From Pirellulales bacterium (GTDB lineage: Bacteria; Planctomycetota; Planctomycetia; Pirellulales; PALSA-1355): a stretch of 64,000 nucleotides of DNA. This document shows, one piece after another, positions 8,753 to 37,575 of the stretch (its first letter is position 1; every line of letters starts with the position of its first letter). The notes under the pieces were generated by a model that made no database searches, was not told the DNA's origin, and saw only the letters and a list, made by a program, of their open reading frames with translations. Location: assembly GCA_022844125.1 (NCBI GenBank), contig JALHMI010000004.1:62001-126000 (forward strand). Reading direction: 5' to 3'. The position numbers and the translations under genes were made by a program.

Positions 8753-8800
8753 ATCTGGAGAATTATAGCACGGGGCCGGAGCCAGCGGATGGACCTCCAT

Positions 8801-8856
8801 CATAACCCGAAGCGTGAGCGAAGATTAACAGCGCCTCGCTCACGCTTCGGGTTATG
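8801..8856. repeat. Perfect 21-bp inverted repeat, copy of the dispersed AACCCGAAGCGTGAGCGAGG family
   Basis: Two arms, 8801-8821 and 8836-8856, are exact reverse complements over 21 bp around a 14-nt spacer. The core AACCCGAAGCGTGAGCGA recurs at 31128-31219 and in altered form at 24544, 24575, 33124 and 33719. It sits between the DUF1501 stop (8895) and the sigma factor start (8752). As RNA it would form a very stable hairpin that could end or separate the two transcripts. No T-run follows on either strand, so it is not a classical intrinsic terminator. Confidence 0.85.
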
Positions 8857-8894
8857 AAAGGACTGAGGCCCTGTGCCGATTTGAACACGAACGA

Positions 8895-10340
8895 CTACGC
8901 CAGAATCTGCTGCACCACGTTCCCCGCCACGTCGGTCAGCCGGAAATCGCGTCCCTGGAAGCGATACCTCAGCCGCTTGTGGTCAACACCCAGCAGGTGC
9001 AGCACCGTGGCCTGAAAGTCGTGGGCATGCACGCCATCGCTCACCACGTTGTAGCCGAACTCGTCGGTTTGGCCGAACGTCATGCCCGGCTTGATGCCGC
9101 CGCCGGCCATCCAGATGCTGAAGCACCGCGGATGATGATCGCGGCCGAAGTTGTTGGCCGAGATCGCTCCCTGGCTGTAGCTCGTGCGGCCAAACTCGCC
9201 GCCCCAGATTACCAGAGTTTCATCGAGCAGGCCGCGCTGCTTAAGATCTTTCACCAAAGCCGCCGATGCGCGGTCGCATTGATCGGCCTGCCGCTTCAGC
9301 TCGCTCGGCAAGTTGCCGTGATGATCCCAGTCGCGATGATAGAGCTGCACGAACCGCACGTCGCGTTCGGCCAGTCGCCGCGCGAGCAAGCAGTTGTTGG
9401 CGAATGACGACTTGCCCGGCTCCGCCCCGTACATCTCCAGCACGCCGGCCGATTCCTTCGAAATGTCCATCAGCTCGGGCACGCTCGTCTGCATCCGGTA
9501 AGCCATTTCATAAGCGTCGATCCGCGTGGCAATCTCCGGATCGCCCACCGCTTCCAGCTGCATCCGGTTCAGCTTCTGCACGCCGTCGAGCAGGCTCCGC
9601 CGCGCGGCCGGATCGATCCCCTCGGGATTCGACACATAGAGCACCGCGTCGCCAGTGGAACGGAACTGCACGCCCTGATACTTGCCCGGCAGAAAGCCGT
9701 TGCCCCAATAGCGCGCGAGCAGCGGCTGTCCGCCACCACCGGACAGGAGCACGACGTACTCCGGCAGATTCTTGTTCACGCTTCCCAGGCCATACGCACT
9801 CCAGGCGCCCAGCGTCGGTCGGCCGGGCTGCTGGTTGCCCGTCAGCAAATACGTGACGGCCGGATCGTGATTGATCGGATCGGTGTGCAGCGACCGCACC
9901 AGGCAAATGTCATCGGCTACGCTGCCAATGTGCGGCAGCACTTCGCTCATCTCGGTGCCGCACTGGCCGTACTTCTTGAACGGGTAGGCCGGCCCGACCA
10001 TCAGCAGCTTCGACTGCCCGCTGGTCATGCCCGTGATCCGCTGCCCCATCCGCACCGAGTCGGGCAGCTCCTCGCCGGTCAGCTCCTTGAGCTTCGGCTT
10101 GGCGTCGTACAGGTCGATGTGCGAAGGTCCACCGGACATGAACAGGTAGATCACCCGCTTCGCCTTGGGCGCGAAGTGCAACTGACCCAGTGCCCCGAGT
10201 GCCTCCAGCGGGTTCTCCGGCGCCGCTTGCAATCCATCATTCAGTAGCGATGCGAGCGCCAGCGCACCCAGTCCCTTGGCCGATCGGCCAAGCAGCGTCC
10301 GGCGGGTCATTTCGCGGCGAAGGTGTTCGTTGTCGAGCAT
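8895..10340 (-). CDS. DUF1501 domain-containing protein with Tat signal
   Basis: A 481-residue DUF1501 protein. The Tat-like signal is 'MTRRTLLGRSAKGLGALALA'. Family motifs are 'VIYLFMSGGPSHIDLYDAKP', 'LVIWGGEFGRTSYSQG' and 'FGRDHHPRCFSIWMAGGG'. The C-terminus ('LHLLGVDHKRLRYRFQGRDF') also matches. It is the second gene of a two-gene operon: its start lies 3 nt after the stop of the PSCyt1/DUF1549/DUF1553 gene. This pairing is among the most frequent gene pairs in planctomycetes and suggests that the two exported proteins work together, perhaps on complex sugars. That role is inference, since the family lacks firm biochemistry. Confidence 0.93.
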   Translation of the reverse strand: MLDNEHLRREMTRRTLLGRSAKGLGALALASLLNDGLQAAPENPLEALGALGQLHFAPKAKRVIYLFMSGGPSHIDLYDAKPKLKELTGEELPDSVRMGQRITGMTSGQSKLLMVGPAYPFKKYGQCGTEMSEVLPHIGSVADDICLVRSLHTDPINHDPAVTYLLTGNQQPGRPTLGAWSAYGLGSVNKNLPEYVVLLSGGGGQPLLARYWGNGFLPGKYQGVQFRSTGDAVLYVSNPEGIDPAARRSLLDGVQKLNRMQLEAVGDPEIATRIDAYEMAYRMQTSVPELMDISKESAGVLEMYGAEPGKSSFANNCLLARRLAERDVRFVQLYHRDWDHHGNLPSELKRQADQCDRASAALVKDLKQRGLLDETLVIWGGEFGRTSYSQGAISANNFGRDHHPRCFSIWMAGGGIKPGMTFGQTDEFGYNVVSDGVHAHDFQATVLHLLGVDHKRLRYRFQGRDFRLTDVAGNVVQQILA

Positions 10341-21698: not shown

Positions 21699-23216
21699 AT
21701 GAAGGCACGGAAGCAGCGAGTGCTGTTGGATCTGTCGATGGGGCTGCTCGGATACTGCGGCATCGCCCAGGACGTGCGCCTGCTCTATAAAACGCTGGCG
21801 TCGTCTCCCGACGTCGAACTGACCGGCATGATCTATCCGCCGTTCTCCCGGACGTTCGGCCACCGGTTCGCCAGGTCGACTTCGCCGCAAGCCGATCGGA
21901 TCGCGAACCAGGCGTGCTTTCTCTGGAGCTTGAATGAAGGACCGCCGGCGCTGCCTTACCCGCGCCCGGTGCGCATGCTGATGAAGGCCGCGCACGCCGC
22001 TTCGCGGATGACCAAGCGCAAGGCCCAGCTCGAACCGCTCATCGCCTCGAAACTCTGGCCGACCGTCTGGCGCAGCATGTTTCGCCAGACGCTCTCCGCA
22101 TCGGACATTCCTCTCGTCGAAAACGGCCAGTTCGTCCTGGCCAACATGTCGGCCGACACGATCTTCATGCGGGTCATGGGCTTGCGCCGCCCCATCCAGC
22201 TCGACACCAGCAACTACGACTTCGTGATCACGCAGACGGCCCGGCCGTTCACGGTCAGCCCCGGCACGCAGCACATCGTGCGCTATCACGACATGATTCC
22301 GATCACCCAGCCGGATACGATGTCGCGCACGATGGACATCGAATGGCACCACCGTTCGATCCGGCAATGCCGCGACAGCTTCTTCGTCTGCAACTCCGAG
22401 CCAACCCGCGAGAACCTGGTCGACGTCTATCCCGAACTGATGGATCGGGCCGCCACGGTTCCGTATATGCTCTCGAACGAATACTGGCCCGACGGCAGTG
22501 CTTCGCAGGTCCGTTCGATCATCTCGATGCGGCGTTCCACCGCTTCGGGCGTCACGCCGCGCCGCTCGCTCAAAAAGACCCCGCGCTACTTGATGTGCGT
22601 GTCCACCATTGAGCCGCGCAAGAACTTCACCGGCCTGGTCCAGGCCTTCAACATCCTGAGGGCGCGGCAAAGTATCAATCGCACGGCGCCCGATCTGAAG
22701 CTGATTATCGTCGGCGGTCCAGGCTGGAAGTTCGAGCCGATTCTGCACGCGATGCGCGAGCCGATCGCCGCCGGCCACGTGATTCACCTGGAGAAGGTCA
22801 CCTCGGAAGAGCTCCGCGTGCTGTATACCCACGCCGAGGCGTTCGTCTTTCCGTCGAACGCCGAGGGCTTCGGCTTCCCGCCGCTCGAGGCCATGCAGTG
22901 CGACCTGCCGGTCATCGCCTCGGACATCGCTGAGCACCGCTGGGTGCTGGGTGATGCGGCTCTGTATTGCAACTCCTATGACGTGAACTCGATCGCCGAT
23001 GCGGTCGAACAGCTCGTGGCTTCGGAGGAAGCCCCCGCCCTCAGACGCGAGCTGATTGCCCGCGGCCGCCGCCGCGTCGAGCGCTATACGCTCGACCGGT
23101 GCCGCGATCAGTGGATCGATTTGCTCGAGCGCCTGCGGAGTGGAGAACGACCGCTGGCCAGTGTGCCTCCCGCTACGACCCCGTTCGTGAGCGGCTCGAA
23201 GGAACGAGCCGCCTGA
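21699..23216 (+). CDS. GT4-type glycosyltransferase (tandem paralogue B)
   Basis: A 505-residue paralogue of the preceding gene. It opens with 'LDLSMGLLGYCGIAQDVRLL' and shares 'HIVRYHDMIPITQPDTM', 'VSTIEPRKNFTGLVQAF', 'EGFGFPPLEAMQCDLPVIAS' and 'HRWVLGDAALYCN'. The ATG at 21699 is chosen because CAGGAG lies 11 nt upstream and the shared sequence starts there; an in-frame ATG seven codons earlier is the alternative. It probably adds a second sugar of the same class. The nucleotide-sugar dehydrogenase gene starts 23 nt downstream, so these genes are likely cotranscribed. Confidence 0.91.
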   Translation: MKARKQRVLLDLSMGLLGYCGIAQDVRLLYKTLASSPDVELTGMIYPPFSRTFGHRFARSTSPQADRIANQACFLWSLNEGPPALPYPRPVRMLMKAAHAASRMTKRKAQLEPLIASKLWPTVWRSMFRQTLSASDIPLVENGQFVLANMSADTIFMRVMGLRRPIQLDTSNYDFVITQTARPFTVSPGTQHIVRYHDMIPITQPDTMSRTMDIEWHHRSIRQCRDSFFVCNSEPTRENLVDVYPELMDRAATVPYMLSNEYWPDGSASQVRSIISMRRSTASGVTPRRSLKKTPRYLMCVSTIEPRKNFTGLVQAFNILRARQSINRTAPDLKLIIVGGPGWKFEPILHAMREPIAAGHVIHLEKVTSEELRVLYTHAEAFVFPSNAEGFGFPPLEAMQCDLPVIASDIAEHRWVLGDAALYCNSYDVNSIADAVEQLVASEEAPALRRELIARGRRRVERYTLDRCRDQWIDLLERLRSGERPLASVPPATTPFVSGSKERAA

Positions 23217-23239
23217 CCCTGCTAGAAAGGATTCGTACT

Positions 23240-24529
23240 ATGAAGGTCGCCGTCATCGGCACGGGCCGTGTCGGCCTGCCGCTCGCGCTATCGCTAATCG
23301 ACTGCGGCGCGCAGGTCCTGGGCGTTGATCTCAGCGAACAAACCCGCCATGCCATCAACGTCGAACGGCGGATGCCATTCGACGAGCCGGGCTACGACGA
23401 ACTCGCCGCCTCGGGCAAGCTGCACATCACCGGCAATATTCGCGACGCCGCGGATTGCGATTACTTCATCGTGACGGTCGGCACGCCGCTCCGCGCGCAC
23501 ATCGAAACCGATCTCTCGTTCGTCACCAAGGTGATCGAATCGATCTGCGAGTTTCTCGCGCCGGGTCAGACGATCGTCATGCGCAGCACGACGGCCCCCA
23601 AGACCACGGCCTTCGTGGCCAGCCTCATCGAGTCACGCACCTTCCACAAAGTCGGCCGCGACGTGTTCCTGGCCTGCTGCCCCGAGCGGATCGTCGAGGG
23701 CAAGGCCCGCGAAGAGCTGCACCAGCTTCCGCAGATCATCGGCACCGAAGACTCAGCCAGCGCACAGTCCGCCGAACGGCTGTTCGCTCTGCTCGGCGCG
23801 GAACCCTTGCATTGCAACTGGGCCACCGCCGAGCTGGTCAAACTGTTCTGCAACGTCTCGCGCTACGCCTACTTCGGCGTGATCAATGCCCTCTCGATGA
23901 TCGCACTCGACCAGAACGTCGAACCGCACGAAGTCATCGAGCTGGCCAACCGCGACTACCCGCGCAAGCTGCACGGCAAGCCGGGCTTCACCGCGGGTAC
24001 GTGCCTCCGCAAGGATTTCGGCATGCTCGCCGAGAACTACTGGAGCGGCGGCTTCCTCACCGAAATCTGGCGGATCAACGAATCGCTGCCCAAGTACCTG
24101 GTCGACCTGGCCAAGAACCGCTACGGTACCCTGAACGGCAAACGCATCGCCGTCCTCGGCTATTCGTTCAAACGCGACGCCGACGACGTCCGCGACTCGC
24201 TGGCCCCCAAGCTGATTCGCTACCTTTCGCGCGAAACGCCGGCTTCGATCGTCGTCAGCGACCATCACCTCTCGGTGAACCATATCGAACCGTGCCCGGG
24301 CCTGCAGTTCACGCCCGACATGGACACCGCGCTTCGCAACGCGGACTTCATTTTCATCGCCACGAATCACACGCTCTACATCGACCAGCGCGACAAAATC
24401 CTCGCCACGGTCAACCGCGGAGCCCGCGTGATCGACATCTGGGACACCTGCGGTCAGAATCGCGCCACAATCGACACCGAGTCGCTGGCCAGACAAAAGT
24501 CGTTCCAGCTCCGCCGCACAGCAGCATAA
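23240..24529 (+). CDS. Nucleotide-sugar dehydrogenase (UDP-glucose/GDP-mannose dehydrogenase family)
   Basis: A 429-residue NAD-dependent enzyme that oxidises the C6 alcohol of a nucleotide sugar to a uronic acid in two steps. The Rossmann motif is 'VAVIGTGRVGLPLALSL', followed by 'VTVGTPL', 'RSTTAPKTT', 'CCPERIVEGKAREEL' and the catalytic Cys in 'GTCLRKDFGML'. The C-terminal domain has 'IAVLGYSFKRDADDVRDS'. The open frame extends upstream, but ATG 23240 starts the Rossmann strand and has AGAAAGG just before it. The 'GTCLRKD' form is looser than the usual GGxCxPKD. It would supply the acidic sugar for the polysaccharide; whether UDP-Glc, UDP-ManNAc or another is not decided. Confidence 0.92.
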   Translation: MKVAVIGTGRVGLPLALSLIDCGAQVLGVDLSEQTRHAINVERRMPFDEPGYDELAASGKLHITGNIRDAADCDYFIVTVGTPLRAHIETDLSFVTKVIESICEFLAPGQTIVMRSTTAPKTTAFVASLIESRTFHKVGRDVFLACCPERIVEGKAREELHQLPQIIGTEDSASAQSAERLFALLGAEPLHCNWATAELVKLFCNVSRYAYFGVINALSMIALDQNVEPHEVIELANRDYPRKLHGKPGFTAGTCLRKDFGMLAENYWSGGFLTEIWRINESLPKYLVDLAKNRYGTLNGKRIAVLGYSFKRDADDVRDSLAPKLIRYLSRETPASIVVSDHHLSVNHIEPCPGLQFTPDMDTALRNADFIFIATNHTLYIDQRDKILATVNRGARVIDIWDTCGQNRATIDTESLARQKSFQLRRTAA

Positions 24530-24543
24530 CGAAACCAGCTCCC

Positions 24544-24600
24544 AACCCGACGCGTGAGCGAGGATGCTGATCCTAGCCCGAACCGCAAGCGAGGGTACTT
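24544..24600. repeat. Two direct copies of the dispersed CCCGA-GCGAG repeat
   Basis: Between the dehydrogenase and epimerase genes are AACCCGACGCGTGAGCGAGG (24544-24563) and AGCCCGAACCGCAAGCGAGG (24575-24594), both in the same orientation and 31 nt apart. They represent the two subtypes of the repeat ('AACCCGA..' and 'TAGCCCGA..'). Unlike at 8801 and 31128 there is no inverted partner here. Confidence 0.7.
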
Positions 24601-24655: not shown

Positions 24656-25648
24656 ATGTCGCGGATCATGGTCACCGGCGCGGCCGGCTTCATCGGTTAT
24701 CACCTCGCCCGGCGCCTGCAGAAACGGGGCGATGCCGAACTGCTGCTCGTCGACAACTTCTCGCGCGGCGCCAACGACGAGCTCTACCAGGAGCTCCGCC
24801 GCCTGCCGCGTGTGAAGGCCTTCGATTGCGACCTCTGCGATCCGGCCGACGTGGCTCGGCTGCCCGACGACGTCGATACGATCTACCACGAAGCCGCGCT
24901 CAACGGCACGCAGAATTTCTACGAGCGTCCGTACGAAGTCCTGCGCAGCGGCACGCTGCCGACGTTCTACCTGCTCGATAAGTACGCTCGCAGCGGGCGC
25001 ATGCAGCGGTTCGTCTATGCCGGCACGCCCGAGTCCTACGCCTCGACCGTGACGAAGTTCAATTGGCCGGTGCCGACCGACGAGAATGTGCCGCTCTGCA
25101 TTGACGACGTGTTCAACGAGCGCTGGTCGTATGCCGCCGCCAAGATCCACGGCGAAGTGCTGGTGATCAACGCCTGCCGGCAGTTCGGCGTCCCGTTCTC
25201 GATCATCCGCTATCACAACGTCTTCGGCCCGCGGATGGGCGATAAGCACATCGTCCCCGACTTCCTGATCCGCCTTCGCAATGACGTCGCCGAGTTGCAC
25301 GGCCACGGAGACACCCGCGCGTTCCTGTACATTGACGACGCGGTCGAAGCCACGATTCTCACCGGCGAACATTCAGCCACCGCCGGCCAGGTGGTTAATA
25401 TTGGTGGCTCGCAAGAGCTGACGATGCTCGAACTCGGCCGCCGGATGATGCAGCTTGCCGGTCGCGATCCCGACTCGATCGTCCTGCATCCCTCGCCCGC
25501 CGGCAGCGTCAAACGCCGGCTCCCCTCGACCGAGAAACTCAAACGGCTCACCGGCTTCCAGGCCCAATGGTCGCTCGACGAGGGTCTGCTCGAAGCAATC
25601 CGCTTCTACGCCCCCGAACTGCTCACCGACGTCGCCGCCGCAGCGTAG
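24656..25648 (+). CDS. NAD-dependent epimerase/dehydratase (extended SDR)
   Basis: A 330-residue extended short-chain dehydrogenase. 'VTGAAGFIGYHLARRL' is the GxxGxxG dinucleotide loop. 'YHEAALNGTQNFYERP' and 'YAGTPESYAS' supply the Ser/Thr of the active site, and 'WSYAAAKIHGEVL' the YxxxK. 'RYHNVFGPRMGDKHIVPDF' is the sugar-nucleotide-binding region. It follows the nucleotide-sugar dehydrogenase and could act on its product, for instance as a uronic acid epimerase or decarboxylase, to set the final donor sugar. The exact reaction cannot be read from the sequence. Confidence 0.9.
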   Translation: MSRIMVTGAAGFIGYHLARRLQKRGDAELLLVDNFSRGANDELYQELRRLPRVKAFDCDLCDPADVARLPDDVDTIYHEAALNGTQNFYERPYEVLRSGTLPTFYLLDKYARSGRMQRFVYAGTPESYASTVTKFNWPVPTDENVPLCIDDVFNERWSYAAAKIHGEVLVINACRQFGVPFSIIRYHNVFGPRMGDKHIVPDFLIRLRNDVAELHGHGDTRAFLYIDDAVEATILTGEHSATAGQVVNIGGSQELTMLELGRRMMQLAGRDPDSIVLHPSPAGSVKRRLPSTEKLKRLTGFQAQWSLDEGLLEAIRFYAPELLTDVAAAA

Positions 25649-28736: not shown

Positions 28737-30014
28737 TCACCCCCCGAGCTCTTCCGCGATCCGCAGCAGCCGGTTGTACTTCGCGAGTCGCTCGCTTCGC
28801 ACGATCGAACCGATCTTGATCCCATCCGCCGCGGTCGCCACGGCCAGATCGGCAATCGTCGTGTCCTCCGTTTCTCCGCTGCGGGCCGAGACGATGAACC
28901 CGAAACCGCCGCGCCGCGCGACGAGCACCGCTTCAAGCGTTTCCGACAGCGTGCCGATTTGATTCAGCTTGATCAGCACGCTGTTGCCAGCCCGCTCGGC
29001 GATCCCGCGTTCGATCCGCTTGACGTTGGTCGTGAACAAGTCATCGCCCACCAGCCGCACCCGCGAGCCAAGTCGCGCGGTCAACCGCTGCCAGCCGGCC
29101 CAATCATCTTCGGCGAGCGCGTCCTCGATGCTGCGAATCGGATACTGGTCCACGAGCCTGGCCATGACGTCGATCATCTCGTCGCTCGTGAGCTGCGCAT
29201 CGCCGGTCGCGATCAGCCGGTAGTTTCGCCCGTCGTAGAAATGGGTGCTCGCCACGTCGAGGGCAATCGTCACGTCGCGCCCCGGCTGGAGTCCCGCCGC
29301 TTCAATCGCCTTCAGCACCAGCTCGATCGCTTCGCTGTTGCTTTTCAGTCGCGGGCCATAACCTCCCTCATCGCCCACCAGCCGGCCCTCGTAACCGCTT
29401 GAGGTGAGCAGCGAGCCGAGCCGTCGATAGACCCGCACGATCCACTCCAGCCCCTCGGCATAGTTGGCCGCGCCATTCGGTTTGATCAGATAGTCTTGAA
29501 AGTCCAGGTTCCCTCCGGCATGCAATCCGCCCGAGATCATGTTGACCATCGGCAGCGGCATTCGCGGCGGAGGGGCCGAGGTATCGAACTGCCGCATCAG
29601 ATCGTGCAGATGCGTGAATAGCGGCACGCGTCGCGCCATGGCCGCCGCATGCGCCACGGCCAGCGACACCGCCAGGATGGCATTCGACCCCAGCCGGCGT
29701 TTGTCGGGCGTGCCATCCAGCGCGATCAGCCGCGCGTCGATCCCGCGCTGATCGGTAACCTCGTAACCTGCGAGCGCCGGCGCGATCGATTCGCGCGCGT
29801 TCGTCACGGCCTGCTGCACGCCGCGCCCGTCGTACCGTGCAGCCGCCGTATCGCGCAGCTCGTACGCCTCGCTCGCGCCGGTGCTCGCGCCCGAGGGAGC
29901 GATCGCTCGGCCCGTCGCGCCCGTCTTGGTATGCACTTCGGCTTCGACGGTCGGATTCCCCCGGCTGTCGAGCACTTCGCGAGCGACGATGCGGCTGATC
30001 TGCATGAGAACCAT
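28737..30014 (-). CDS. eno: Enolase
   Basis: A 425-residue enolase (2-phosphoglycerate to phosphoenolpyruvate, glycolysis/gluconeogenesis). Visible hallmarks: 'EVLDSRGNPTVEAEV', 'APSGASTGASEAYELRD', 'GSNAILAVSLAVAHAAA', 'PLPMVNMISGG', 'VGDEGGYGP', 'YPIRSIEDALAEDDW', 'LVGDDLFTTN', 'LIKLNQIGTLSETL' and 'VSARSGETEDTTIADLAVA'. The frame is open upstream, but the enolase family starts at MVLMQISRIVARE (30014) or the ATG three codons later. It lies 19 nt after a phosphotransferase gene and is likely cotranscribed with it. All catalytic segments are intact. 'FTTNVKRIERG' replaces the more common 'FVTNPKRLAEG', a mild variation. Confidence 0.95.
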   Translation of the reverse strand: MVLMQISRIVAREVLDSRGNPTVEAEVHTKTGATGRAIAPSGASTGASEAYELRDTAAARYDGRGVQQAVTNARESIAPALAGYEVTDQRGIDARLIALDGTPDKRRLGSNAILAVSLAVAHAAAMARRVPLFTHLHDLMRQFDTSAPPPRMPLPMVNMISGGLHAGGNLDFQDYLIKPNGAANYAEGLEWIVRVYRRLGSLLTSSGYEGRLVGDEGGYGPRLKSNSEAIELVLKAIEAAGLQPGRDVTIALDVASTHFYDGRNYRLIATGDAQLTSDEMIDVMARLVDQYPIRSIEDALAEDDWAGWQRLTARLGSRVRLVGDDLFTTNVKRIERGIAERAGNSVLIKLNQIGTLSETLEAVLVARRGGFGFIVSARSGETEDTTIADLAVATAADGIKIGSIVRSERLAKYNRLLRIAEELGG

Positions 30015-30033
30015 CGACCTGCGTTTTGAGTAT

Positions 30034-31089
30034 TTAGTTCTGGAAGTGCCGCCGCGCCAATTGCAGCACGTCGTCCCACGGTCCTTCGCCGGCCGCGAAC
30101 ACGTCGCGAGCGAGAGAGCGAATCTGCTCGCGCCGTGCCTCCTCGGATAAATACTCGACCGGGCTCTTGCCGTCCAGACGCGCCCACACACAGCCCGCAA
30201 AGTTCTGCGTGCCCCGTGACCAGAGTCTGGTCAGTTCGTCCGGGGTGAGACGCGTTTGCATGACTTCATCGTAAGCCTGCTGGAAAACTTTGGTCAGCGC
30301 CAGGTATCGAGCATGCGCCGGCTGCTTGAGGCAGGCCTTGAGCACCAGGTGACTCAGAAAGAACCCCAGGTCGAAGGCCGGATCGCCGTAGTGTCCCGTC
30401 TCGAAGTCGACCAGCGTCAGCTCATTCTGCGAATGCAGCAGGTTCTTGGGGCTGAAATCCGCATGCACCAGCGCACAGCAATTCTCCTCGAGCGAATCGA
30501 TCAGCCTGGTGACTGCTGCCCTGGAGTCTTCGCGATGCCCCGCCAGCGTCCGGTAATACGGATCGATTCGCAGCGCATCAAATAGCGACCGATCGCCGAG
30601 TGACTGTGCCAGCTCGGCGTGATGCCAGCTTCCCGCATGTAAGCTTCCGAGCAGCCGACCCGCGGCCGCGGCCACCTGCGAATTGGTTTCGGCGGCCAGG
30701 AGCTCCGACTTCCAGGTCGCATGGGGACGCGGGGCCGGCGTCATCGCAAACAGATAGTTCGCGCGATCTTCGAACAGAATCGCGGGCACTGCCGCCGCAA
30801 TCGGCTCGCTCGACTCTCCTCGCTTGGCAAGCAGCGTATGACACACGCGCAGCACCGCGGCCTCGCGCCACACTCGCTCCAAGCTTGCGAACCACGGCTG
30901 CGCTGTCCGCAGTTGGGCTCGCCCCTGCTTGAGCACGAAAGCGTCATCTTGCCGATCGGGCCGCTCCACCCGCAGCACCATGTTCGACACCCCGCCGGTC
31001 AGTTCACGGACGATGACGCGTTCGTTCGGGGCGACGTGGCCGCCATCGCGCAGATACTTCTCCGCCGTGTGTTCATCCAGGATGTGCAT
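30034..31089 (-). CDS. APH-family small-molecule phosphotransferase (MTR kinase-like)
   Basis: A 351-residue kinase of the aminoglycoside phosphotransferase fold, which includes choline and methylthioribose kinases. 'LTGGVSNMVLRVER' is the Gly loop, 'DAFVLKQG' the ATP Lys, 'ALVHADFSPKNLL' the catalytic HxDxxxxN loop and 'LVDFETGHYGDPAFDLGFFL' the Mg-binding Asp. It phosphorylates a small metabolite; 'GGVSN' and overall shape suggest MTR kinase, but no methionine salvage genes are nearby. It is the first gene of a two-gene unit with enolase. An antibiotic-resistance role is not implied. Confidence 0.85.
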   Translation of the reverse strand: MHILDEHTAEKYLRDGGHVAPNERVIVRELTGGVSNMVLRVERPDRQDDAFVLKQGRAQLRTAQPWFASLERVWREAAVLRVCHTLLAKRGESSEPIAAAVPAILFEDRANYLFAMTPAPRPHATWKSELLAAETNSQVAAAAGRLLGSLHAGSWHHAELAQSLGDRSLFDALRIDPYYRTLAGHREDSRAAVTRLIDSLEENCCALVHADFSPKNLLHSQNELTLVDFETGHYGDPAFDLGFFLSHLVLKACLKQPAHARYLALTKVFQQAYDEVMQTRLTPDELTRLWSRGTQNFAGCVWARLDGKSPVEYLSEEARREQIRSLARDVFAAGEGPWDDVLQLARRHFQN

Positions 31090-31127
31090 GGGCGTCTCGT
31101 GCGTGGAAGCAGATCAGGTGCATGCTT

Positions 31128-31219
31128 CACAACCCGAAGCGTGAGCGAGGCGTATTTTCGAAGCCGTAGTTTGAGCGAAGGCTGTCTGGCGATTCTCCTC
31201 GCTCACGCTTCGGGTTATG
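31128..31219. repeat. Long inverted repeat with three copies of the AACCCGAAGCGTGAGCGAGG element
   Basis: Outer arms 31128-31150 and 31197-31219 are reverse complements over 23 bp with one mismatch. Between them lies a degenerate third copy (CGAAGCCGTAGTTTGAGCGA, 31159-31178). The element is in the 222-nt gap between two divergent genes (phosphotransferase and hydrolase), so it is not placed to end either transcript. This argues that the element spreads as DNA and is not simply a terminator. Confidence 0.85.
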
Positions 31220-31311
31220 AATGATCCGCCCCATCCGCATTCTCGCGGTTGACCGTGCCAAGACGGTGCCTTACAAATCGAAGTACTTCCAAAGGCCCAG
31301 TATAGAATAGA

Positions 31312-32376
31312 ATGCACTCGGCGAATGGTCCTCAGGGTGCACCGCACTTGAACGAATCCTTTCCACCGTTTCGGCCGCACCCCTTTCTGCGCAGCGGTCA
31401 TGCGCAGACGCTGGCCGGCGTGTACCTGCCGATGCCCAAGTTGCCCTACCGTGCCGTGCAGCACGTCGTCGAACTCGACGATGGCGACCGCCTGGTCCTG
31501 CACGACGATCGGCCGGACGGCTGGCGCAACGGCGATCGCGCGTGCCTGATGATTCACGGCCTCGGCGGCTGCCACGAGAGCGGCTACATGCAGCGCATCT
31601 CGCACAAGCTCGGTGCTCGCGGCGTGCGGGCCTTCCGCATGGACCTCCGCGGCTGCGGGGCAGGGCAGGGACTCGCGCGCCTCCCCTATCACAGCGGCCG
31701 CTCGGAAGACGCCCGCGCCGCGCTCGAAGCCATCGCCCGCATCGCCCCCGATTCGCCGGTCACGCTGGTGGGCTTCTCACTGGGGGGCAACATCTCGCTC
31801 AAGCTCGCCGGCGAGATGGAAGACCGTCCCTGCGCGCATTGGGACAGCGTGATGGCCGTCTGCCCGCCGGTCGATCTGGCGGCCTGCTCGCGGCAGATTC
31901 AAAAGCGCCCCAACACGCTCTACGACCGCTATTTCGTCACTCGCCTGATCGAGCAGCTCGAATCGCGCCGGCATCATCTTCCGCCCGAGCATGCGCAGCC
32001 GTTCGAGCGCCCGCCGCGCACGCTGTGGGATTTCGATAACCAGTTCACCGCCGTGGTCTGTGAGTTCGGCACTGCCGACGATTATTACGCCCGGGCGAGT
32101 TCGCTGCCGCTGCTGTCGAACATTCGCCGTCCGACGCTGATCCTCTCAGCCAGCGACGATCCGATGATTCCGCCGATTGCCCTGCAATCGGCCAAGTTGC
32201 CGCGGGCGGTTCAGCTTTGCATGACCGAGCGCGGCGGCCACCTGGGCTTTGTCGGTCGCCGCGGCGTCGATGCCGATCGCCGCTGGATGGACTGGCGCGT
32301 GGTAGACTGGGTCACCGGCGTCCAGCGGCTCATCGCCAGCACCGCGTCAAACTCCGCCGCTTTTCCCCAGCGCTAA
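31312..32376 (+). CDS. YheT-family alpha/beta hydrolase
   Basis: A 354-residue alpha/beta hydrolase of the YheT/EMB8 type. 'FRPHPFLRSGHAQTLAGVYL' is the characteristic N-terminus, 'CLMIHGLGGCHESGYMQR' the oxyanion region, 'VTLVGFSLGGNISLKL' the nucleophile elbow (Ser), 'LILSASDDPMIPP' the Asp and 'TERGGHLGFVGRR' the His. All three catalytic residues are present. Such proteins are cytosolic esterases of unclear physiological substrate. A 12-nt gap to the next gene suggests cotranscription. The start codon may be further down, at the Leu before 'NESFPPF'. Confidence 0.9.
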   Translation: MHSANGPQGAPHLNESFPPFRPHPFLRSGHAQTLAGVYLPMPKLPYRAVQHVVELDDGDRLVLHDDRPDGWRNGDRACLMIHGLGGCHESGYMQRISHKLGARGVRAFRMDLRGCGAGQGLARLPYHSGRSEDARAALEAIARIAPDSPVTLVGFSLGGNISLKLAGEMEDRPCAHWDSVMAVCPPVDLAACSRQIQKRPNTLYDRYFVTRLIEQLESRRHHLPPEHAQPFERPPRTLWDFDNQFTAVVCEFGTADDYYARASSLPLLSNIRRPTLILSASDDPMIPPIALQSAKLPRAVQLCMTERGGHLGFVGRRGVDADRRWMDWRVVDWVTGVQRLIASTASNSAAFPQR

Positions 32377-32388
32377 GAGCCCCACACC

Positions 32389-33102
32389 ATGCAGTCGTCC
32401 GACTTTCACAACTGGCCGCCTCTGGTGTGGTTGCTCGCGGCCGTGCTGGCCGCCTTGATTTTCGTGCTGCAGGTCGGCATCCTCGGCTACGCCTATGAGA
32501 AAATCGGCATCCAGCGGCGCACCGCGTTCCTGATCCTGGTGCTCTCGCTCGCCGGCTCTTACGTCAACCTGCCGATTGGCGACATGCTGCCCGATCAGCC
32601 CACGCGGTTTCACGTCTACATGGATCCAGCCTCGGGCGGAACTCACCTCGAGCCGATCGGCACTTCGATCGCGCTCAACGTCGGCGGCGCGATCGTCCCC
32701 ACGCTGATCTCGATCTACCTGCTGGTGAAAAACGCCCTCTACGTCCAGGCGATCGCCGGCGTCGCGTTCGTCTCGGCCGTGGTCCATTGGCTCGCAGCGA
32801 TCGAGCCGGGGATGGGCGTCTCCGTGCCGATTTTCGCGCCGCCGATTGTCTCGGCCGGCGTGTCAATGGTTCTCGCCCGGTATCATGCTGCGCCGCTGGC
32901 TTACATTTCCGGCAGCCTGGGCACGTTGATCGGCGCGGACCTGCTGAATCTCACCGCGCTGGTCGACACAGGGCCGGCTGTCGTCTCGATCGGCGGCGCC
33001 GGCACGTTCGATGGCGTGTTCCTGACCGGCATCCTGGCCGTGCTCCTGGCCGTCAGCCCCCGCCCCGTCACCGACGACGACCCACCGCCGAATTACGCGT
33101 GA
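32389..33102 (+). CDS. DUF1614 family membrane protein
   Basis: A 237-residue polytopic membrane protein. It shows about seven hydrophobic helices and the DUF1614 pattern: 'LVLSLAGSYVNLPIG', 'IALNVGGAIVPTLISIYLL', 'FAPPIVSAGVSMVLA', 'AYISGSLGTLIGADLLNL' and 'VSIGGAGTFDGVFLTGILAV'. The repeated GG and small-residue motifs suggest tightly packed helices, as in a transporter or membrane enzyme. Function unknown. It follows the YheT-type hydrolase at 12 nt. Confidence 0.88.
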   Translation: MQSSDFHNWPPLVWLLAAVLAALIFVLQVGILGYAYEKIGIQRRTAFLILVLSLAGSYVNLPIGDMLPDQPTRFHVYMDPASGGTHLEPIGTSIALNVGGAIVPTLISIYLLVKNALYVQAIAGVAFVSAVVHWLAAIEPGMGVSVPIFAPPIVSAGVSMVLARYHAAPLAYISGSLGTLIGADLLNLTALVDTGPAVVSIGGAGTFDGVFLTGILAVLLAVSPRPVTDDDPPPNYA

Positions 33103-33123
33103 CGCGAAATTGGCGTCACCATC

Positions 33124-33150
33124 TTAGCCCGACGCGCGAGCGAGGGTGCC
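33124..33150. repeat. REP-like repeat, left flank of RAYT gene
   Basis: TAGCCCGACGCGCGAGCGAG starts at 33125 and continues GGTGCC. It lies 20 nt from the end of the transposase gene and is inverted relative to the copy on its other side (33719-33743). Core shared with 24575-24594. Confidence 0.75.
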
Positions 33151-33169
33151 CCGCTTGATGACATTGCCA

Positions 33170-33679
33170 CTACCATTCCGGCCGCTCGTCTTGAGCGTCC
33201 CGTACGTAAGCAATCGCCGCATCGAGACTCTTCTCATCGAACAGATAGCGTGAGCTGCCACCCTCACCCCACCAGGTGCGCTTCCCGTTCGTGCTTCCGC
33301 CGGTTGCGCGTTCAAGTTCGGACAACCTCCGCGAACACCAAGCCTTGAATTGACTTCGTACCTCATCCGGATGTTCCGGAGCAGCGACAACCACATGCAC
33401 ATGGTTCGTTCGTACATTGACCGCAAGCAACTCCCAGCCACGAATCTCACAGTGCCTACGAATTGTCGCTTCCGCAGTGGTGCGATGCACCCCTGACAAC
33501 TTCACCGGATCTGCTTTCATCCGGCGTATGGCGTCGCGCTCGACGAGTCGATTCGGCGGTTGCTGGCCGGCAGACTCTTTCGTCCAGCCGCGCACGTCGC
33601 CCGGCAGCCAGACACCGTATGTGGACCACGTGATGAGATAGCCGAGCGGGTCGGGTTGTGGCGCTTCGTTGGGACGCAT
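33170..33679 (-). CDS. REP-associated tyrosine transposase (RAYT, Y1_Tnp family)
   Basis: A 169-residue single-strand DNA transposase of the IS200/REP-associated class. The 'NHVHVVV' segment at about residues 92-98 is the HUH metal site. A Tyr in 'AIAYVRDAQ' near the C-terminus is the likely nucleophile. The N-terminal 'YLITWSTYGVWLPGD' is typical of this group in planctomycetes. RAYTs are single-copy domesticated transposases that bind and cut REP repeats. Here the gene is bracketed by inverted copies of a repeat present at several other sites in the window, which matches the RAYT/REP pattern. No target-site or IS200 ends were identified. The reading frame is intact. Confidence 0.88.
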   Translation of the reverse strand: MRPNEAPQPDPLGYLITWSTYGVWLPGDVRGWTKESAGQQPPNRLVERDAIRRMKADPVKLSGVHRTTAEATIRRHCEIRGWELLAVNVRTNHVHVVVAAPEHPDEVRSQFKAWCSRRLSELERATGGSTNGKRTWWGEGGSSRYLFDEKSLDAAIAYVRDAQDERPEW

Positions 33680-33718
33680 GCCGAACTCAGTGAGCGAATT
33701 CGCCGGCCGCAGGGCGGG

Positions 33719-33743
33719 GTACCCTCGCTAGCGCTTCGGGCTA
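33719..33743. repeat. REP-like repeat, right flank of RAYT gene
   Basis: On the minus strand this reads TAGCCCGAAGCGCTAGCGAG followed by GGTAC. It begins 40 nt upstream of the RAYT start and faces the left copy (33124-33150) as an inverted repeat. The pair encloses about 595 bp including the entire gene. Confidence 0.78.
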
Positions 33744-33911
33744 ATATACCCAGCTCGCCACGATTCCAAACAGCAGCCCCGAACTCCCAGATGGTGAGTC
33801 CCGCTTCGTGAATCATTGTGCTGCGACCTCCCTGCCGGTTGACGATCCTGTCAGCGCGCCGCGAGGTTATGGACCGAACCTCGATCCCGTGCATTGCACG
33901 AGCGCCAGGTA

Positions 33912-33946
33912 TCAAAAAAGAAAGGCCGCCCGTTGGGCAGCCTTTC
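33912..33946 (-). terminator. Intrinsic terminator of the RRM protein gene
   Basis: On the minus strand GAAAGGCTGCCC / GGGCGGCCTTTC (one G-T type mismatch) closes on AAC and is followed by TTTTTT. It lies about 95 nt after the stop of the RNA-binding protein gene, leaving a 3' untranslated region of that size. Confidence 0.8.
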
Positions 33947-34041
33947 GTGTGCATCCGCAAAATGGTTGTTCGAACCGAGTGGACGCGTTTGTTGTCAGCA
34001 GACGAAGGATTGTCGTCCGCCAAGGGCACAGGCGTGCGCGA

Positions 34042-34392
34042 TTAATAACGGCTGCGGCCACCGCCGCCGCCACCACCGCCACCACCGTAGCCGCCGCGAC
34101 CACCACGGCCGCCGCCGCCACCACCGCCGCCAGGACCACGGTCTTCGCGCGGACGAGCTTCATTCACGGCCAGAGGACGACCGTTGTGCTGCTGCTCGTT
34201 CAAGCCATTGATCGCGGCTTGAGCTTCAGCATCACTTCCCATCTCGACGAAACCAAAACCCTTGCTGCGGCCAGTCTCGCGATCCTGAATCACCTGGGCA
34301 CTGGTGACCGTACCGTACTGCGAAAACAGCGACTCGAGTTCCGAGCTGCTGACACCGTAGGCGAGATTACCTACATACAACTTCTTACCCAC
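34042..34392 (-). CDS. Glycine-rich RRM RNA-binding protein
   Basis: A 116-residue protein with one RNA recognition motif (residues about 3-80): RNP2 'KLYVGNLAY' and RNP1 'KGFGFVEM'. A tail of Gly with a few Arg ('GGGRGGRGGYGGGGG') follows and ends RSRY. This is the layout of cyanobacterial Rbp and plant glycine-rich cold-induced proteins. The GTG at 34392 is preferred: AGGAG lies 8 nt upstream and the RRM begins at once, whereas the open frame upstream is not RRM-like. A candidate promoter lies about 160 nt before, giving a long 5' leader that could regulate translation, for example at low temperature (inference). Confidence 0.9.
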   Translation of the reverse strand: MGKKLYVGNLAYGVSSSELESLFSQYGTVTSAQVIQDRETGRSKGFGFVEMGSDAEAQAAINGLNEQQHNGRPLAVNEARPREDRGPGGGGGGGGRGGRGGYGGGGGGGGGGRSRY

Positions 34393-34549
34393 TCCAAGAC
34401 TCCTGTACGAAGCGCACAATACGACCCTGCAGAACTTTCCGGGTCGCAGACGAAAGGGGCCAAACAGGGGTGGCCCAACCCGGTGGCAGGCGATAGAGGC
34501 TACTGGAGTGCACAGCACGTGGGTCTCGCTCGACGAACCAACCGCGCAA

Positions 34550-34578
34550 AGTATATCATGTTTTGCGAAACCAGATAA
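34550..34578 (-). promoter_or_regulatory. Candidate promoter of the RRM gene
   Basis: On the minus strand TTATCT (34578-34573), a 17-nt spacer and TATACT (34555-34550). The -10 is good and the -35 weak. The predicted start near 34543 gives a leader of about 150 nt. Confidence 0.35.
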
Positions 34579-34616
34579 GAGAGGTGACATTCTCGCATCG
34601 CGCCGGTTAACGGGGT

Positions 34617-34634
34617 TTGTGAAATAAATCACAA
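34617..34634. promoter_or_regulatory. CRP/FNR-type palindromic operator candidate
   Basis: TTGTGAAATAAATCACAA is a perfect inverted repeat with the TGTGA-N6-TCACA form recognised by the CRP family. It stands in the gap between the divergent RRM gene and purE, 46 nt upstream of the purE start and about 82 nt upstream of the predicted RRM transcription start. The AT-rich site stands out in GC-rich DNA. Confidence 0.5.
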
Positions 34635-34679
34635 GGCGCCGACGACGATTCCCAACCCCTTACAACATTCGAGGTTCCA

Positions 34680-35174
34680 ATGCCGAACTCCCAGCCTCCG
34701 CTCGTCGGCATCGTCATGGGTAGCAAGTCCGACTGGGACACCATGCGACACGCCGCCGAAACGCTGACCAGTTTCGGCGTCGCCCACGAGTGCCACGTCG
34801 TTTCCGCGCACCGCACGCCCGACTGGATGCGTGACTACGCCACGAGCGCTGCCTCGCGCGGTCTGCAAGTCATCATCGCCGGCGCCGGCGGCGCTGCTCA
34901 TCTGCCCGGTATGGTCGCCGCGCACACCACGCTTCCGGTGCTCGGCGTGCCGGTCGAAAGCGCGATGCTCCGCGGACTCGACTCGCTGCTCTCGATCGTG
35001 CAAATGCCCGGCGGCATTCCCGTCGCCACGCTCGCCATCGGAAAGCCAGGCGCCATCAACGCGGGCCTCCTCTCGATCAGCATCCTCGCGCTGCACTCGC
35101 CGGAGCTGGCGCAAAAACTTGCCGACTATCGCCAGCATCAAACCGACACCGTCCTGGGAGCCGAACTACCGTGA
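34680..35174 (+). CDS. purE: 5-(carboxyamino)imidazole ribonucleotide mutase PurE
   Basis: A 164-residue class I PurE. It converts N5-CAIR to CAIR in purine synthesis. '[16 protein letters not shown]' is the N-terminal nucleotide loop, '[15 protein letters not shown]' contains the catalytic His, and '[20 protein letters not shown]', '[20 protein letters not shown]', '[13 protein letters not shown]' and '[12 protein letters not shown]' complete the core. Length is standard. It overlaps purK by 4 nt (GTGA), so the two are translationally coupled. Confidence 0.97.
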
Positions 35175-36307
35175 CGCAAGTCCTTCCAGGCGCAACGATC
35201 GGAGTACTCGGTAGCGGTCAGCTCGGCCGGATGTTCGCCATCGCCGCGCGCCGCATGGGCTATCGCGTCCATACGTTCTCGCCCGACGACGACACGCCCA
35301 CCGGCCAGGTTGCCGATTGGGAGACGACCGCCTCGTACGACGATCTCGACGCGATTCGCAAGTTTGCTCAAAGCGTGAACGTTGTCACCTTCGAGTTCGA
35401 AAACATTCCCACGCCCACCGTCGAGCGCGCGGCCGAGTACGTCGCCGTCCGACCCGGCGGGCACGTGCTCTATCACACACAGCACCGGTTGCGCGAGAAG
35501 ACGTTTCTCTCCGGCGCTGGTTTTCCGGTCGTGCCCTATCGCGCCGTTCATTCGCTCGAAGAGCTCAACGCGGCGCTAGTCGAACTCGGTGCGCCTGCCG
35601 TGCTGAAGACGGCCGGTTTCGGCTACGATGGCAAAGGCCAGGCCAAAATTCACTCGCCTGCCGAAGCAGCCACGGCCTGGACGGCGCTCGGCACCAACGA
35701 AGCCGTGCTCGAAGCCTTCGTCGATTTTCAGTCGGAGGCTTCCGTCGTCGCCGCCCGCTCTGTCGAAGGGCACCTGGCCGACTACGGAGTCATCGGCAAC
35801 TCGCACCGCAACCACATTCTCGACGTCTCCGTCGCGCCGGCCGATCTGCCGGTTGAAGTCGGTCGCGAAGCGGTCCGCATCGCCCGCGCCGTGCTCGAAG
35901 CGCTCGATGTCGTGGGCGTCCTGTGTGTCGAGTTCTTCGTCACACGCGATGGCCAGCTCCTGATCAACGAACTCGCTCCGCGGCCGCACAACTCGGGCCA
36001 CCTGACTTTCGACGCCAACGTCACCAGCCAGTTTGAACAGCAGCTCCGCGCGATCTGCGGTTTGCCGCTCGGCTCAACAGAACTGCTGCGTCCGGCCGCG
36101 ATGGCCAACCTGCTCGGCGATCTGTGGACTGCTGGCGAGCCCAACTGGTCGGCCGCGTGCAGTCATCCCGACGTGAAACTGCACCTGTACGGCAAGGAGC
36201 AAGCCCGCCCCGGCCGCAAGATGGGGCACCTCACCGCGCTCGCCACCGACCCGCACCTGGCCGTCGAAGCCGCGCTCTCGGCCCGCCGCGCTCTCACAGA
36301 ACGATAA
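35171..36307 (+). CDS. purK: N5-carboxyaminoimidazole ribonucleotide synthase PurK
   Basis: A 378-residue ATP-grasp enzyme that makes N5-CAIR from AIR, bicarbonate and ATP, the substrate of PurE. '[20 protein letters not shown]' opens the protein; '[10 protein letters not shown]', '[16 protein letters not shown]', '[17 protein letters not shown]', '[20 protein letters not shown]' and '[14 protein letters not shown]' are the ATP-grasp and active-site segments. GTG start, overlapping the purE stop. Complete and of normal length. Confidence 0.97.
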
Positions 36308-36333
36308 GTGAACACCACACGCAAGGACACACC

Positions 36334-36780
36334 ATGATCCTGGACGATCTCAAGCGAGCCGAGCGCTACTACGCCTTGCACCCCGGCTTCAAGGCGGGCT
36401 TTGAATTCCTGCTCAAAGGCGATCTGCTCGCGCTCGATTGCGGCCGGCACGAGATCGACGGCGATCGCGTGTTCGCCCTGATCAACCGCGATCCCGGCCG
36501 AGGGCGCGCGGGCGCGCGCCTCGAAGCTCATCGGAAGCACATCGATATCCAGTTCCTGGTGGACGGCGCGGAAACCATCGGCTGGCGTCCCACGGCCGAA
36601 TGCGAGACCGTTACCGAGGAGTACACGGCCGAGCGCGACATCATGTTCTTTGGCGATGCCCCGGCCAACTGGATCGAGCTGCCCGTCGGCAAGTTCATGA
36701 TCTTTTATCCCGAGGATTCCCACGCCCCGCTGGCAGCCCACGGCGACAATGTCAAAGCGGTGATCAAGGTAGCGTTGTAG
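36334..36780 (+). CDS. YhcH/YjgK/YiaL family protein
   Basis: A 148-residue cupin-like protein of the YhcH/YiaL family (DUF386). Features are 'EAHRKHIDIQFLVDGAETI', 'ERDIMFFGDAPANWIELPVG' and 'MIFYPEDSHAPLAA', with the His and Glu that bind metal in known structures. Relatives are linked to handling of sialic or other sugar acids. ATG 36334 has AAGGA 8 nt before it; the longer open frame overlaps purK. It may share the purEK transcript (26-nt gap), but a functional link to purines is not evident. Confidence 0.92.
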   Translation: MILDDLKRAERYYALHPGFKAGFEFLLKGDLLALDCGRHEIDGDRVFALINRDPGRGRAGARLEAHRKHIDIQFLVDGAETIGWRPTAECETVTEEYTAERDIMFFGDAPANWIELPVGKFMIFYPEDSHAPLAAHGDNVKAVIKVAL

Positions 36781-36960
36781 GCCCTTCGGGTGCCACTGCT
36801 GGCTTGCCCAGCACTGCTTGGTTTCAGGTCTTGCCTTGCACTCTCCGGTTCGAGAATAGCCTCGAACCCGTGTGCGGCGAGCGGCATCCTCAGGCCTTCC
36901 CCGCCGACTATAATTGGAACGCGATCTCTTGGGTCCTGGCGTTCCCTGCCGAGTACGTTT

Positions 36961-37575
36961 GTGTCCGACCAACTGCCCACCCGCGAACCTGACGCGACGC
37001 TCCGTCCGCCGCAGTTCACGCTGCGGACGATGATGGTCGTGACGCTCCTGGTCGCCGTGCTCGTTTCCGTGATGACCGCCGTGGGCACGGTGTGGGCCCT
37101 GGGCCTCTTGTTCTTCGTGCTGCTGATCACCGCGCACGTCGTGGGAAACGCCGTCGGTACCCGGCTTCGCGACCGCGCGACCACCCGGCCAGAGGTTGCC
37201 GCCGAGATGCGCCGCGCGGCCAGCCAGAGGAAGTCCGTCGTCACGCATGGGCCTAGCCGGCTCGGTCAGCACCGCCGGTTGCACTGGTTCACGCTCGTGC
37301 TGACGCTCGCCGGCGCGCTTACCGCGGGCTACTTCGGAGGCGTGGGCCTGGCGGCCGTCTATCCCGACGCGACGACCGCGGCCGTCTGGCTCGCGCACCT
37401 ATCATCCGGCGTGCTCGGCGGCCTGGCGGTGTTCATCGTCACGGCCTTCCTCTCAGTACTTCGCCAAATGCTCAGCGAAGCGCACGCCGGCAGCGATCCC
37501 TATCACCCGCCCGGCTTCCGCGAAGCGAAGCCGGTGGGCTCGGCACAGAAACCGGTCGACGATTCGCGGATCTGA
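36961..37575 (+). CDS. Hypothetical membrane protein with 'QFTLRTMM' motif
   Basis: A protein of about 204 residues with two pairs of membrane helices. After a short polar start comes 'RPPQFTLRTMMVVTLLVAVL', the planctomycete 'F(S/T)LRT' entry into a membrane helix also seen at 13629-14033. The rest has 'WALGLLFFVLLITAHVVGNA', a basic loop, 'FTLVLTLAGALTAGYFGGVG' and a fourth helix. The frame is open back to 36790, but those residues are Ser/Cys-rich and uncharacteristic, so the GTG at 36961 is my choice with no strong binding site. Function unknown. Confidence 0.6.
   Translation: MSDQLPTREPDATLRPPQFTLRTMMVVTLLVAVLVSVMTAVGTVWALGLLFFVLLITAHVVGNAVGTRLRDRATTRPEVAAEMRRAASQRKSVVTHGPSRLGQHRRLHWFTLVLTLAGALTAGYFGGVGLAAVYPDATTAAVWLAHLSSGVLGGLAVFIVTAFLSVLRQMLSEAHAGSDPYHPPGFREAKPVGSAQKPVDDSRI

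Follow-up and report, generated by a model that had tools for sequence, protein, structure and literature searches.

What is a small transposase gene doing between two inverted copies of a short repeat, when related copies lie scattered through the DNA around it? We examined this locus in a window of 64,000 nucleotides, the whole stretch of DNA that was analysed, which lies within contig 4 of the source genome (27 contigs, 6.44 Mb). A first-pass annotation of the window had described the locus as a REPtron-like unit, that is, a RAYT bracketed by inverted copies of its likely repeat. We estimate a probability of roughly three in four that 33121-33747 is a class-3 REPtron-like unit, in which the gene for a Y1 HUH transposase occupies the space between two inverted REPs of its own, the protein would bind, cut and spread such pairs (REPINs), and two protein/repeat pairs reside in the same genome.

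The gene (33170..33679, minus strand) is predicted to encode RAYT-A, a class-3-like HUH/Y1 single-strand transposase of 169 amino acids (H93-V-H95, Y158----Q163), based on its open reading frame, Pfam, conserved residues, an AlphaFold2 model and fold matches. The Pfam Y1_Tnp match is weak and above threshold (E 3.2e-5, 24.5 bits vs a cut-off of 23), and the protein scores under the cut-offs of both NCBIfam REP_Tyr_transpos (26 vs 80 bits) and NCBIfam transpos_IS200 (25.6 vs 55 bits). H93-V94-H95 forms the HUH motif and Tyr158 occupies the catalytic position, and relatives keep both. Specifically, H95 and Y158 are invariant in the family and H93 occurs in at least 90% of rows (43- and 51-row alignments); Q163 is invariant in the 51-row alignment and present in at least 90% of rows in the 43-row alignment. 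The N-terminal residues W18, G22, W24, L25, G27, D28, R30 and G31 are likewise invariant in the 51-row alignment. The AlphaFold2 model (pLDDT 93.1, pTM 0.85) has a Y1-transposase fold. Foldseek matched it to 2ec2, a Sulfolobus tokodaii transposase (E 2.9e-5), and to TnpAREP 4er8 (E 1.7e-4), VIA-align gave Z 13.5 for the best IS200/IS605-type structure (105 residues, 3.4 A) and Z 10.0 for TnpAREP 4er8, and a profile search of PDB sequences returned weak matches of like kind (best E 8.5e-4). A single-protein search of the contig collection recovered no relative. An alignment-based contig search recovered at least 529 in 593 stretches; among the best 80, which were kept, 78 are titled as planctomycete groups (e.g. 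Blastopirellula marina) and 2 just as 'bacterium'. Plasmid and phage collections gave no match at E 1e-5.

RAYT-A is enclosed by inverted arms of 34 nt (33121-33154 and 33714-33747) that are 88% complementary. The left arm, on the plus strand, reads ATCTTAG-CCCGACGC-GCGA-GCGAGGG-TGCCCCGC. The right arm, on the minus strand, reads ATATTAG-CCCGAAGC-GCTA-GCGAGGG-TACCCCGC and lies 34 nt 5' of the RAYT-A start codon. Both share TTAG-CCCGANGC-GCNA-GCGAGGG, the tag lying outermost, and the similarity extends inward (TRCCCCGC). When the 350-bp flanks are compared without gaps, their top inverted match scores 22, compared with maxima of 13 in 273 comparisons of shuffled flanks (three for each of 91 loci) and 12 in 91 reversed flanks, which bears out the earlier claim that the HUH/Tyr gene at 33170-33679 is enclosed by inverted repeat copies.

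We distinguish two repeat subtypes, A (TAG-CCCGA copies, loop GCNA), to which both arms belong, and B (ACAA-CCCGA copies, loop GTNA). The related copies that the first-pass annotation had placed at 8801, 24544, 24575 and 31128 are all real, and inverted partners on the minus strand, at 8834-8851 and 31197-31214, can be added. One inverted pair of subtype B (8800..8823, plus strand, and 8834..8857, minus strand; 10-nt spacer) lies between ORFs 8120-8803, with a 4-nt overlap, and 8895-10340. A second (31127..31150, plus, and 31197..31220, minus; 46-nt spacer) lies between ORFs 30034-31089 and 31312-32376. Two further plus-strand copies are a subtype B REP at 24540..24563 (TCCCAA-CCCGACGC-GTGA-GCGAGG) and a subtype A REP at 24571..24596 (TCCTAG-CCCGAACC-GCAA-GCGAGGGT), the latter without a nearby inverted partner of its own type and situated between ORFs 23099-24529 and 24656-25648. 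The gene row at 32389-36307 comprises DUF1614, an RRM protein, purE (AIR carboxylase) and purK, with a terminator-like hairpin (33920..33946, minus strand) 3' of the RRM gene. The sole Rfam match falls over this hairpin and is sub-threshold (21.6 bits vs a threshold of 50); a tRNA search of 30000-37000 found none, and a sigma-70-type promoter search of 33000-34100 gave no match. At 2759-2785 the window also contains CTAGCCCGAAGC-TTT-GCTTCGGGCTAG, a palindrome with 12-nt arms fully complementary around TTT. It resembles the product of a central deletion that joined two inverted REP halves, and may be compared with the 'double foot' REPs mentioned in the accessible portion of PMC6006769.

The repeats extend well beyond the window. 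The exact core CCCGANGCGNNAGCGAGG occurs 69 times in the genome and 0 times in the reversed control; the A-preceded form ACCCGANGCGNNAGCGAGG, with up to 2 mismatches, has 142 matches vs 13 in the reversed control; and the TAG...GGGT form, with up to 3 mismatches, has 71 vs 2. A GTNA loop is found in 58 of the 69 exact cores. Subtype A is rare in this genome, with 11/69 exact cores lacking the T loop and 5 exact TAG...GGGT places. We examined 100 copies, a sample and not a census, from 40 stretches around listed places (100 of the 142 matches), the window and the L002 locus described below. They comprise 64 with an AA tag and T loop (B), 12 with AG and C (A), 11 of a mixed AG/T subtype (e.g. 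TGGTAG...GTGA...GGGA) and 13 others. Neighbouring copies less than 130 bp apart mostly converge (32 of 49; 9 and 5 are direct and 3 diverge), and the spacers of converging pairs peak at 16-17 nt (9) and 28 nt (7); judged by eye, several spacers of the latter length have a TCGCTCGG-like centre in common. The borders of subtype B are sharp, conservation being at most 0.4 bits outside TCAYAA...GAGG. The short converging pairs look like REPINs. The bracketing, the 142 matches against 13 and the planctomycete titles among the best relatives agree with the proposal that a REP/RAYT-type unit is present in a planctomycete. A tandem array of approximately 180-bp units, each with TAG- and AA-tagged REPs, was seen at L209 (G000 C15:172900-174400).

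A second transposase, RAYT-B (L002, C3:340226-340684), was found by a protein search of the same genome; it is 41% identical to RAYT-A and was accompanied by one weak broken match. A profile search of this genome gave three RAYT matches. RAYT-B sits between two inverted subtype B copies with the ACAA tag, and each subtype is paired with its own RAYT, A with RAYT-A and B with RAYT-B. The two subtypes recognized in the first-pass annotation are thus both present genome-wide, each with a RAYT, and the mixed subtype occurs besides. A broken RAYT in two pieces, one with a stop, was found in a relative, G001 (57% identity over the longer piece), and is flanked by subtype A copies.

Across the order, RAYT matches were found in 91 of 246 genomes with a single protein at E 1e-6 and in 108 of 246 with a 43-row profile, a scan that scored 15 candidates per genome and in which RAYT-negative genomes may hide distant ones. 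We compared flanks at 91 usable loci, taken from the upper score range of the places that the order-wide search listed; among those up to L094, L003 (no tblastn match), L006 (the second piece of L004) and one locus with too short a flank were omitted. An inverted flank pair scoring at least 14 is present at 72 of the 91 loci, and at 0/273 shuffles and 0/91 reversed controls; the other 19 have no flank pair above the shuffle maximum. The named relatives gave bracketing in 64/76, a set that overlaps with the order loci (e.g. L095 and L007), and bracketing counts are quoted at the order level.

Despite great sequence difference, many loci share one plan: tag, outer stem, short internal loop, inner stem and GNNA loop. 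A two-stem hairpin occurs at 59 of the 72 bracketed loci, and the best hairpin has a GNNA loop in 53 of these 59, compared with 55 of the 509 two-stem hairpins obtained from 1440 shuffled arms. In 52 of 105 distinct GCGNNAGC-anchored segments all three outer positions pair, whereas 1000 shuffles of the 3' triplets gave 19 on average and never more than 28. Sliding the partner columns, over -3 to +2 columns (+2 at two of the three positions), reduces outer-stem pairing at each position. The outer stems observed include CCC/GGG, CAC/GTG, CCT/AGG and CCG/CGG, and the outer stem covaries. On the 5' side of the internal loop GA is found in 34 of the 57 CCC-class segments and on the 3' side in 36, and GA/GA or GAA/GA internal loops make up 13/59 of all hairpins; GA on both sides is common only in the CCC class. 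Tandem G.A mismatches in DNA can be stable. Folded as single strands in either orientation, both RAYT-A-flanking copies and one B copy did not outperform shuffled sequences (z -0.9 to 0.4); it is the comparative evidence alone that supports the hairpin.

The loop and tag types follow the transposases. From 102 loci with a GNNA hairpin, 94 had a protein of usable length and 87 remained after removal of near-identical ones; the tag ends in AG in 60 of these 87 rows and in AA in 11. The hairpin finder demands a GNNA loop and pairing stems, and the tests on these labels concern which GNNA and which tag, not their existence; a few rows (e.g. L018, L032, L091) are in the wrong register. In 300 shuffles the second base of the loop never changed fewer than 20 times on the protein tree of the 87 rows (mean 25.6), compared with 7 changes observed; for the AG/AA tag, which 71 of the rows carry in one form or the other, 5 changes are observed, the shuffles giving at least 8 (mean 10.4). 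Loop base and tag both follow the protein tree. At the level of genomes, at least 5 T-loop copies are found in 6/7 genomes with a T-loop RAYT vs 28/239 others (p 3e-5), and at least 5 other-loop copies (the exact-core count minus the T-loop count) in 13/15 genomes with a C-loop RAYT vs 25/231 others (p 3e-10). These p values are a guide, as the 7 and 15 RAYT genomes were hand-picked, when the counts were already available, for having a flanking repeat near the core, and Fisher tests ignore phylogeny. RAYT genomes with other stems were counted among the others, and the flanking repeats at L011 and L012 form no good inverted pair. Cross tests detected no association with the other RAYT type (2/6 vs 23/225, p 0.13, a small sample; 2/14 vs 26/225, p 0.67). 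Two genomes are contrary cases: G018 has 533 T-loop copies, yet C-loop repeats at the two examined of its three RAYT matches, and G236 has 48 T-loop copies and a single RAYT, which is C-loop. We tentatively hypothesize, as one possibility that we hold to be doubtful, that class-3 RAYTs of Planctomycetes may read a two-part REP code, consisting of the second base of GNNA and the tag end AG/AA within a shared two-stem plan, such that several orthogonal transposase/repeat pairs coexist per genome, A and B being such a set.

The first-pass annotation suggested an active or recently active system; syntenic sites and repeats in relatives offer evidence of past movement. In G002, which belongs to another genus of the same family and in which no RAYT was found, DUF1614, RRM and purE follow the same order as in the window. 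From the DUF1614 stop to the terminator-like hairpin, the far edge of the empty site, there are 117 bp in G002 and 818 bp in the window. The unit was therefore gained in the source lineage or lost in G002. As the difference is 701 bp and the unit 627 bp, with 74 bp outside the unit, the site is not base-precise. In G014, which encodes a partial RAYT (57% identical to RAYT-A over residues 66-166), inverted pairs at separate loci have the spacer as well as the arms in common, as judged by eye. The starts of G014 contigs 16-19 (L233-L236) are identical over their first 97 bases, including a REP, and then diverge; they probably mark a longer, very recent repeat at which the assembly breaks. The common spacers and identical contig starts point to recent spread in this genome.

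It is possible, though on balance doubtful, that the RAYT and its two inverted REPs move jointly as an autonomous TIRtron- or IS-like element, with the REPs as terminal inverted repeats and the dispersed REPINs as non-autonomous relatives. The empty site in G002 would fit such movement, as would the occurrence in G001 of the bracketed remnant on contig 24 and of the DUF1614 locus on contig 28 (L227), where there is no RAYT. The bracketing pair converges, in the same orientation as the short pairs, and TIRtrons have been described, as set out in the part of Di Nocera et al. 2013 (PMC3733652) drawn on here. However, the source genome contains no second near-identical unit, its two good RAYT matches being only 41% identical and the third weak and broken; a loss in G002 would look no different from a gain in the source genome; and the empty site, at 701 bp of difference for a 627-bp unit, lacks base precision.

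The class-3 REPtron-like reading, with a RAYT acting on its own REPs, also has to accommodate genomes in which repeats and transposase occur apart. At least 10 core copies are present in 39/108 genomes with a RAYT match vs 14/138 without (odds ratio 5.0, p 1.6e-6, uncorrected for phylogeny). The 14 REP-rich RAYT-negative genomes hold 10-303 core copies; exact core copies without a convincing RAYT number 303 in G183, 179 in G007, 174 in G184 and 112 in G128, with a range of 84 to 303 when G004 is included. Rescoring of these 14 genomes, which took in all candidates in 13 and 150/166 in G128, reached no better than a weak match of E 1e-6, and six of them had nothing at E 1. Conversely, 69/108 RAYT genomes have fewer than 10 copies of the CCCGANGCGNNAGCGAGG core, although repeats with other stems flank many of the RAYTs in these genomes. 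The rule that presence of a RAYT means presence of repeats was rejected as too strong on these two counts. The first-pass annotation had held that repeats absent beyond the window, or equally numerous in relatives lacking any RAYT, would speak against it. The latter applies in part, and the RAYT-negative genomes rich in REPs count against a simple reading in which the transposase makes the repeats. Repeats can persist, or be made, where no RAYT is detectable, and a lost RAYT, a very diverged RAYT or another agent would explain this. These genomes, together with the position of the window copies at or between the ends of long ORFs, would also suit an explanation in which REPs are retained because they serve the host (as terminator, at the mRNA end or in supercoiling), the RAYT having simply inserted between two copies or being a passenger that has ceased to act on them. 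We regard this as improbable, because RAYTs are bracketed at 72/91 loci by hairpin types that follow the protein tree, and because RAYT-A and its 50 aligned named relatives retain the frame, HUH and Tyr even though identity is at most 55%.

Returning to a RAYT that acts on its own REPs, we compared the unit with described systems. Class 3 of the TnpA-Y1 proteins, in the available text of Quentin et al. 2018 (PMC6006769), is characterized by Y----Q, an extended N-terminus and flanking weak hairpins with a CnGA foot in many copies. Its 24 proteins include 11 from Planctomycetes, 6 from Acidobacteria and 5 from Proteobacteria. In that same text its describers leave class 3 as a group of few members that might be intermediate between IS200 transposases and RAYTs and that calls for experiments. 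RAYT-A has the HUH and catalytic Tyr, Y158----Q163 and N-terminal conservation of this class; the CnGA foot fits the CCGA in CCCGA of both flanking copies, and the core has its 69 exact copies. A difference is that the repeats here are better parsed as a larger hairpin (tag with mostly AG or AA at its end, covarying outer stem, short internal loop, inner stem, GNNA), a parse that does not appear in the portions of PMC6006769 at hand. Judged on the described features, the RAYT-A system appears to fit class 3 better than a classical GTAG REPtron.

With the class 2 REPtrons (TnpAREP of E. coli and S. maltophilia; 4er8), it shares the HUH/Y1 fold, inverted pairs, one protein per repeat type and a tag directly 5' of the hairpin, which in E. 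coli has a mismatched internal loop, according to the sections of PMC8266576 used here. These sections report that altering the last two tag letters abolished cutting in S. maltophilia and altering earlier letters reduced it; AG is likewise the most constant part of the tag in the order-level repeats. In contrast to class 2, there is no GT[AG]G tag at RAYT-A (TTAG in both copies) or RAYT-B (ACAA), the loop is GNNA, and RAYT-A is far under the NCBIfam REP cut-off. The first-pass term REPtron-like thus holds for a REP/RAYT-type unit and not for a classical GTAG REPtron. Di Nocera et al. (PMC3733652), in the portion available, describe TIRtrons, planctomycete REPs and many R. baltica tyrosine transposase genes with flanking repeats. 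There, no obvious correlation between transposase and repeat family is reported, whereas this order has one (the odds ratio of 5.0 above, uncorrected for phylogeny). A GTAG tag is present at some relatives' loci, e.g. L010 and L037. IS200/IS605 elements carry hairpins at their ends. Elements such as IS608 and ISDra2 resemble the unit in fold, HUH, tyrosine and, as far as the text of PMC6006769 at hand describes them, hairpin ends; the unit differs in having short inverted dispersed repeats where a multi-copy IS would have a left and a right end. That the unit is an ordinary insertion sequence of the IS200/IS605 family is very improbable, for although Pfam matches Y1_Tnp and the closest solved folds come from that family (Z up to 13.5, ahead of 10.0 for TnpAREP 4er8), the NCBIfam IS200 score is far under its cut-off, the ends are inverted hairpins dispersed genome-wide, and no multi-copy near-identical element is present. 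The system belongs to a kind described before, and it is not a REPtron of the GTAG type or a copy of IS200. Among the top-ranked matches of a literature search in open PMC papers, neither class-3 biochemistry nor a GNNA reading was found.

For the class-3 REPtron-like unit we propose a mechanism based on the TnpAREP work, where, in the sections of PMC8266576 drawn on, what matters for cutting is the tag along with the loop in S. maltophilia or a mismatched region in E. coli. In single-stranded DNA, such as that of the lagging strand, the REP would fold. The RAYT would bind the folded REP by its outer stem (here CCC/GGG), short internal loop (here with GA on either side), inner stem and GNNA tetraloop, and the tag at the 5' foot, ending in AG for RAYT-A and AA for RAYT-B, would act as a guide. 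Tyr158 would then cut near the tag and rejoin the ends, and inverted REP pairs would spread to new gaps. Folding and binding in vivo, the choice of strand, cleavage, the guiding role of the tag and the RAYT, not another enzyme, as spreader are what we infer from the comparison. In the scheme given for Marinomonas in PMC8266576, as far as its text is available, tag A3 and G4 choose a CT site; by this logic, the AA tag would predict a TT site for RAYT-B. The 91 usable loci, the two co-resident pairs, the covarying stems and the candidate code supply concrete substrates for testing how single-strand transposases and their repeats remain matched. The useful part is the covarying set with the two co-resident pairs, and no new kind of system is revealed.

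Other arrangements of RAYT genes and repeats occur in the order. On contig 10 of G017, three RAYT genes lie within approximately 53 kb (1338617-1391409), of which L092 is without a pair and L036 and L010 are bracketed by similar repeats. At L022 (G058 C5) and L014 (G077 C1), a whole inverted REP pair is present on each side of the RAYT, with flank arms of 83 and 99 nt.
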